From Anaeromyxobacter paludicola (GTDB taxonomy: Bacteria; Myxococcota; Myxococcia; Myxococcales; Anaeromyxobacteraceae), in contig NZ_AP025592.1 of assembly GCF_023169965.1 (NCBI RefSeq), positions 868,001 to 932,000 of the forward strand: DNA of 64,000 bases, given 5' to 3'. Below the pieces are notes generated by a model. That model was given only the letters and a program-made list of their open reading frames with translations, searched no databases and was not told the DNA's origin. The position numbers and the translations under genes are program-made. Position 1 is the first letter of the stretch. The number at the start of each line of letters is the position of its first letter. Shown one piece after another: positions 40,658-42,596 of the stretch.

Positions 40658-41056
40658 CTAGCCCTTCTCCACCGCCTTGCCGGCCTTCTTCCAGCCCTCG
40701 ATCCCGTCGCCGAGCACCAGCACCTTCGCGTACCCCATCTCGACCGCCCGCCGGGCGGCCTCGTGGCTCGCGCCTCAGAGCTTGTTGGCGCAGTAGAACA
40801 CGAGCACGGCCCCCTTGTCGGCGGGCAGCACCGAGGCGGGGTAGTCGCTGTAGTGGACGTGCTTCGCGCCGGGGACGTGCCCCTTCGCGAAGATCTCGGG
40901 CGGGTTCGCGTCGAAGACGTAGACGCCGGGCTTGCCGACGAGCGACGCCACGCGGGCGACGTCGGCCACCTCGAACCCCTCCCCTCCCGCCGCGCGGGCG
41001 GCGAGCGGGAGGGCGAGCGGACAGGCGAGGGCGAGCATGAGCAGGAGGTTGCGCAT
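40658..41056 (-). CDS. Periplasmic rhodanese-like protein, probable selenoprotein (UGA at codon 94)
   Basis: Reads as a 132-residue rhodanese-domain protein if the in-frame TGA at 40775-40777 is decoded. Residues 1-22 are a signal peptide (MRNLLLMLALACPLALPLAA). The rhodanese fold follows: VYVFDANPPEIFAKGHVPGA (45-64), then LVFYC89-ANKL-U94-GASHEAARRAVE and VLVLGDGIEGWKKAGKAVEK, the usual C-terminal end of the family, then TAG at 40658. Family members as I recall them have YCANxxCxASHxAA, so the UGA falls exactly where a cysteine is expected. The reading after the UGA keeps perfect rhodanese similarity, against a random stop. A hairpin matching bacterial SECIS rules follows. Translation stopping at the UGA would lose the active-site loop and last helices. 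A nonsense mutation is the alternative. selA/selB/selC are not in the window. Confidence 0.82.
40742..40760 (-). promoter_or_regulatory. Candidate bacterial SECIS hairpin
   Basis: Downstream of the UGA on the coding strand, positions +15 to +33 fold into an 8-bp stem GGCCGCCC pairing with GGGCGGUC reversed (one G-U pair), with apical loop GGC at +23 to +25. A loop beginning with G, about 16-37 bases after UGA, is the published bacterial SECIS rule bound by SelB; E. coli fdhF has GGUC. In a GC-rich gene a hairpin can arise by chance. Confidence 0.6.
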
Positions 41057-41143
41057 GGGGTCGTTCTTTAGCGGGTGGGCGGCTCGCACGCCAGCCCGGA
41101 GAGCCGGGTAGCGGCTCCGCGTGCGGGCGGCCAGGGCCAAGGG

Positions 41144-42596
<1,453 letters not shown>

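Follow-up and report, generated by a model that had tools for sequence, protein, structure and literature searches.

A 2026 review (PMC13188914) catalogued five forms of rhodanese-like selenoproteins, including form 1 with a UxxS motif, form 3 with a CxU motif (NF041203), and form 5, TsoB, with a UxxxxU motif (NF045694). In the review, form 1 is represented by WP_010941598.1 from Geobacter with reference to Zhang and Gladyshev 2005, and rhodanese-like selenoproteins, one of them listed with UxxS, have been catalogued since 2005 (PMC13188914). The window analyzed here, the whole 64,000-nucleotide stretch of Anaeromyxobacter paludicola DNA, contains on its minus strand a rhodanese-like gene (40658..41056) that is interrupted by a single in-frame UGA. 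Judging from the sequence of this gene and its homologues, the product is very probably a functional, selenocysteine (Sec)-containing exported rhodanese, and the locus is almost certainly a functional selenoprotein gene and not a decayed one.

As read from the sequence, the frame begins with ATG at 41056, ends with TAG at 40660-40658, and comprises 132 codons and the stop codon, with the UGA at codon 94 (40775..40777, minus strand). A sequence-only reading of this DNA had already given the correct coordinates, codon count, and loop motif, and the strand, which it did not give, is minus. It had also described one TGA interruption without a frameshift and a rhodanese match that continues beyond it, and both descriptions hold on the frame: 38 in-frame codons follow the TGA up to the TAG, and the read-through product forms one PF00581 Rhodanese domain from end to end (residues 35-125, E=2.9e-14, 53.8 bits versus a Pfam cut-off of 22.2), of which the conserved helix and the GIxGW part are encoded 3' of the TGA. 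A standard gene finder stops the frame at the TGA, which is the truncation that had been predicted. Codons 1-23 (40988..41056, minus strand) encode a probable signal peptide, MRNLLLMLALACPLALPLAARAA, which was judged by eye from the translation to be hydrophobic and to end in LAARA; AxA-like or lipobox-like N-termini were also found in the homologues (pattern match only).

The AlphaFold2 model, built with 46 family members and without a ligand, shows a confident rhodanese fold with a mean pLDDT of 91 and approximately 98 over the domain, the confidence being low over residues 1-25. In this model, Cys89 (codon 89, 40790..40792, minus strand), the rhodanese loop cysteine that is invariant in the 46 aligned sequences, lies just past strand 84-88, and Sec94 lies just ahead of helix 96-106, both residues being part of the loop between strand and helix. 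The loop motif of the window protein is Y-C-x4-U-x-A-S-H, in which Sec94 is located five residues past Cys89 (C-x4-U) and is followed by Ser97-His98 (codons 97-98, 40763..40768, minus strand; U94-G-A-S97), corresponding to a U-x2-[SC]-H motif. The nearest solved structures, based on structure and sequence matches, are BH2092 (3nhv), YgaP (5hbl), and GlpE (1gmx). BH2092 has the same fold (Foldseek E=1.8e-8) but lacks Sec; the rhodanese domain of YgaP and GlpE also share the fold and match the window protein in sequence, yet neither possesses Sec, and YgaP has no Cys opposite Sec94 in its printed alignment.

The window protein belongs among the rhodaneses by its PF00581 score above the gathering threshold and by the Cys that never varies in the loop behind the central strand. 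Of the catalogued selenoproteins, form 1 agrees with it in PF00581, a single Sec, and the U-x2-S arrangement (U94-x2-S97 here), as compared by listed motif alone, whereas relatives of the window gene often possess U-x2-C. The TsoB model NF045694 is matched by all 46 aligned members, in the window protein over the rhodanese part, and the five-residue spacing of its UxxxxU motif is equal to that of Cys89 and Sec94. In contrast to TsoB, the window protein has Cys at the first position (CxxxxU), consists of a single domain without the DsbD-like part, and scores 36.7 against the NF045694 cut-off of 805. The LYCAU family (NF041203) is a small rhodanese domain that matches the window protein weakly over its full length (32.9 bits versus a cut-off of 115), but its Sec is situated two residues past Cys (CxU) instead of five. 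Scores were likewise below the cut-offs of the NCBIfam model for the thiosulfate sulfurtransferase GlpE (27.5 versus 102) and of TIGR03865, the PQQ-dependent catabolism-associated CXXCW motif protein, which matches residues 60-131 weakly (40.6 bits versus 128) without a CXXCW motif in the window protein. No dedicated model for the window family was present among the families most often matched by the aligned members. Because the window protein shares UxxS with form 1 and scores far below the cut-offs of NF041203 and NF045694, it was placed among the known rhodanese-like selenoproteins, where it perhaps belongs to form 1 or perhaps represents a sixth form.

The sequence-only reading had assumed that the TGA takes the place of a Cys in related proteins and had suggested aligning codon 94 across homologues. 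In the pooled, non-redundant set, at least 78 distinct sequences carry TGA at this codon and 15 encode Cys there, and no residue other than Sec or Cys was found at this position in the alignments made. The best matches in 60 relatives nearly all contain exactly one internal stop, which is TGA at the same codon. A scan of public genomes with a DNA pattern that contains TGA at codon 94, and that by design finds no Cys forms, yielded more than fifty genuine members, a lower bound, once chance matches had been discarded by inspection of the frames; these came partly from genomes already in the set of relatives. An in-frame TGA that recurs at one codon in dozens of genomes cannot be due to chance. 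Most of the contigs carrying the family belong to Myxococcota, with a few assigned to Acidobacteriota, Planctomycetota, Nitrospirota, Desulfobacterota, or Pseudomonadota, although many are metagenome bins whose taxon labels may be wrong. On the tree, approximately five switches between Sec and Cys were counted, at least three of which are forced by well-supported branches, with an arbitrary root and few alignment columns. Cys89 and Sec/Cys94 are the sole chalcogen residues common to all 46 aligned sequences.

A possible catalytic mechanism is proposed for the window protein; the sequence-only reading had put forward either a selenenylsulfide or a selenium persulfide carrier, and each of these may apply. 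The exported product would contain a single rhodanese domain with Cys89 and Sec94 in its active-site loop (C-x4-U). Cys89 may accept a sulfane sulfur or attack an oxidized thiol substrate, and Sec94 could then act as a fast resolving partner, so that sulfide or the reduced product would be freed and a Cys89-Sec94 selenenylsulfide left behind. Next, a periplasmic thiol reductant may reduce this selenenylsulfide. Provided that Sec is present, we tentatively regard the protein as a putative periplasmic sulfane-sulfur/thiol reductase on a rhodanese scaffold with Cys89 attacking first, an assignment for which the odds are somewhat below even; it draws on the two universal chalcogens, their placement in the loop of the model, fusions to glutathione peroxidase, and what is generally known about rhodaneses and selenoenzymes. 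The roles of the two residues could also be exchanged, with Sec94 as the attacking nucleophile, on which the sulfane sulfur would be held in a selenosulfide (Sec-Se-S), and Cys89 or Cys/Ser97 as the resolving residue; the protein would then be a sulfur carrier whose selenium serves as a fast handle. Sec is usually the attacking residue of redox selenoproteins, and position 97 is Cys in 35 of the 78 homologues with Sec94 (and in 1 of the 15 with Cys94), which places U-x2-C at the start of the helix in the manner of thioredoxin-type redox motifs. This exchange of roles nevertheless appears rather doubtful, as the residue that normally acts as nucleophile in rhodaneses, Cys89, never varies in the aligned sequences and position 97 is Ser in the window protein. 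Given how often U-x2-C occurs among the Sec homologues, the resolving residue may not be the same in every member.

In two Planctomycetota proteins (L081:7004-7975, minus strand; L135:4914-6017, plus strand), a Sec-rhodanese domain precedes a glutathione peroxidase domain, the usual peroxidatic position of which is occupied by Cys (NVASKCG). These fusions support a redox role without pointing to a given substrate. They are also consistent with a periplasmic peroxide or disulfide oxidoreductase in which the rhodanese fold would serve as a scaffold only and no sulfur would be transferred, and predicted selenoproteins are mostly believed to be redox enzymes (PMC13188914). However, the fusion occurs in only two proteins and the invariant rhodanese loop cysteine points to rhodanese-like chemistry, which makes a pure oxidoreductase unlikely. 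The natural Sec/Cys pairs and the two-chalcogen loop of fixed spacing make the contribution of selenium to rhodanese chemistry directly testable. It is conceivable, if on balance improbable, that the family as a whole represents widespread exported C-x4-U rhodaneses, found mainly in Myxococcota and lying outside the five catalogued forms and current annotation models, which carry out selenium-dependent periplasmic reduction of sulfane sulfur or peroxide and are fused to glutathione peroxidase in Planctomycetota.

The machinery necessary for Sec insertion is encoded in the host genome (4.59 Mb, one contig, 99.97% complete). A search for selA, selB, selC, and selD had been advised from the sequence, and all four were found: selA with E=2.7e-154, a SelB of 648 aa above its cut-off, a tRNA-Sec with a UCA anticodon (RF01852), and a SelD whose own frame also includes a TGA. 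SelB and tRNA-Sec very probably read the UGA of codon 94 as selenocysteine under the direction of a hairpin located 22 nt downstream, and without selenium, translation would stop after 93 residues, so that the final third of the fold would be missing.

This hairpin (40742..40760, minus strand) extends over nt 18-36 counted from the U of the UGA and has an 8-bp stem, a GGC loop, a 22-nt spacing, and a folding energy of -14.3 kcal/mol. The quoted rules for bacterial SECIS (bSECIS) elements comprise a loop of 3-9 nt, a stem of 4-16 bp, a G within loop positions 1-2, a distance of 16-37 nt from the UGA, and an energy of -7.5 kcal/mol or lower (PMC13188914); the window hairpin satisfies every one of them, in agreement with the earlier statement that it fits the bacterial SECIS rules. 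Across the family, the rules are satisfied by 63 of 67 Sec genes versus 2 of 15 Cys genes. A synonymous-codon control was needed because conserved Ala-Ala-Arg codons in a GC-rich genome would be expected to form a hairpin in any case. Under this control, the window hairpin is more stable than approximately 98% of the synonymous-codon versions, and the mean z is -1.42 in the 67 Sec genes and -0.06 in the 15 Cys homologues (p=2.6e-6 for the difference, the sequences being related). Dinucleotide shuffling of the window hairpin gave a z of just -1.75; comparisons with synonymous-codon versions and with the Cys homologues therefore served as the real controls. When the analysis window was slid along the gene, the hairpin excess was confined to +12 to +45. 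Counts of stem pairs revealed changes on both sides at some positions and two invariant pairs, and 14 C-C combinations at pair 21-33 indicate that one group must use a shifted register. The hairpin after the UGA is real and selected at the RNA level.

For co-occurrence, the protein, SelB, and tRNA-Sec were sought in the same manner in each of 156 Myxococcota genomes. SelB was found above its cut-off in all 27 genomes with the TGA form, and among the 21 genomes with stop-free family members only, it was present in 10 and absent from 11 (Fisher p=1.6e-5, which is no strict probability, as the genomes are related and kinship was uncorrected). In one genome, G029, the loss of SelB is accompanied by that of tRNA-Sec; its two copies of the gene are stop-free, and the one read has Cys, while its kin in the same family retain TGA forms and SelB. 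In fourteen pairs of close homologues, dN/dS was 0.24 before the UGA (40 codons) and 0.20 after it, and dS was 0.51 before and 0.33 after, a drop that would be expected if the RNA were constrained as well.

These data bear on the remaining ways of reading the codon. The only observation in favor of a pseudogene or a true stop, with translation ending at codon 93 and the remainder a relic, is that a standard gene finder ends the frame there; such a reading is extremely improbable for the window gene and is refuted for the family by the same TGA without other stops in dozens of genomes, the Cys in homologues, equal purifying selection after the UGA, the conserved hairpin, and the co-occurrence with SelB. 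The suggested check for pseudogene decay thus turned out in favor of the gene, as no additional disruption was seen in the relatives and purifying selection persists past the UGA, and the assignment of codon 94 as selenocysteine gains support from the Sec machinery, the TGA/Cys homologues, the SECIS element, and selection. Decoding of the UGA as another amino acid, by recoding to Trp or near-cognate readthrough, has a negligible probability, since only the open frame would agree with it, the homologous residue is Cys and not Trp, the Sec machinery and SECIS are present, and the TGA form is confined to SelB-bearing genomes in the Myxococcota set. Reading the gene as a selenoprotein would correct the annotation of a gene that is otherwise taken to be truncated, or overlooked, in dozens of species and would extend the Myxococcota selenoproteome by an exported sulfur/redox selenoprotein.

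The upstream neighbour on the same strand is thiC (41144..42532, minus strand; Pfam ThiC), separated by an 87 bp gap. In other Anaeromyxobacteraceae, thiC is located on the opposite strand and converges tail to tail with the rhodanese gene, which therefore appears to be inverted relative to thiC in the window (40658-42532), where it lies downstream of thiC. Because thiC converges on the gene in these relatives, co-transcription is not conserved; thiC was dropped as an operon partner and is unlikely to be functionally linked to the gene. No operon partner was conserved across the family loci examined, nor did the analysis reveal a substrate or a reductant. The clearest recurrent neighbour across more than one branch is an OPT transporter gene, which adjoins the rhodanese gene in two other branches, on the upstream side in one branch and on the downstream side in the second (L099:5273-7588, minus strand; L131:5133-6938, minus strand; and ten similar loci), with a GNAT-like gene in between in one branch.

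Further Sec-containing rhodaneses were observed beside the main branch. A second, more distant branch with the motif FYCRGxGU[TS]LS occurs in Anaeromyxobacteraceae and Nitrospirota (L042, L043, L044, and L109) and groups on the tree with tandem Sec-rhodanese proteins. Two Desulfobacterota proteins (L124:1078-2385 and L062:1-934, both plus strand) consist of three rhodanese domains in a row, of which the first two each contain an in-frame TGA at the same position of the loop and the third contains none. Four weak rhodanese matches (G053:C132, G039:C29, G049:C407, and G020:C73), each interrupted by a single internal TGA, are possibly additional Sec rhodaneses. At residues 49-51, after the second strand, D-x-N is invariant in the main branch of the alignment, and the distant branch has D-x-R, which is usual for typical rhodaneses.
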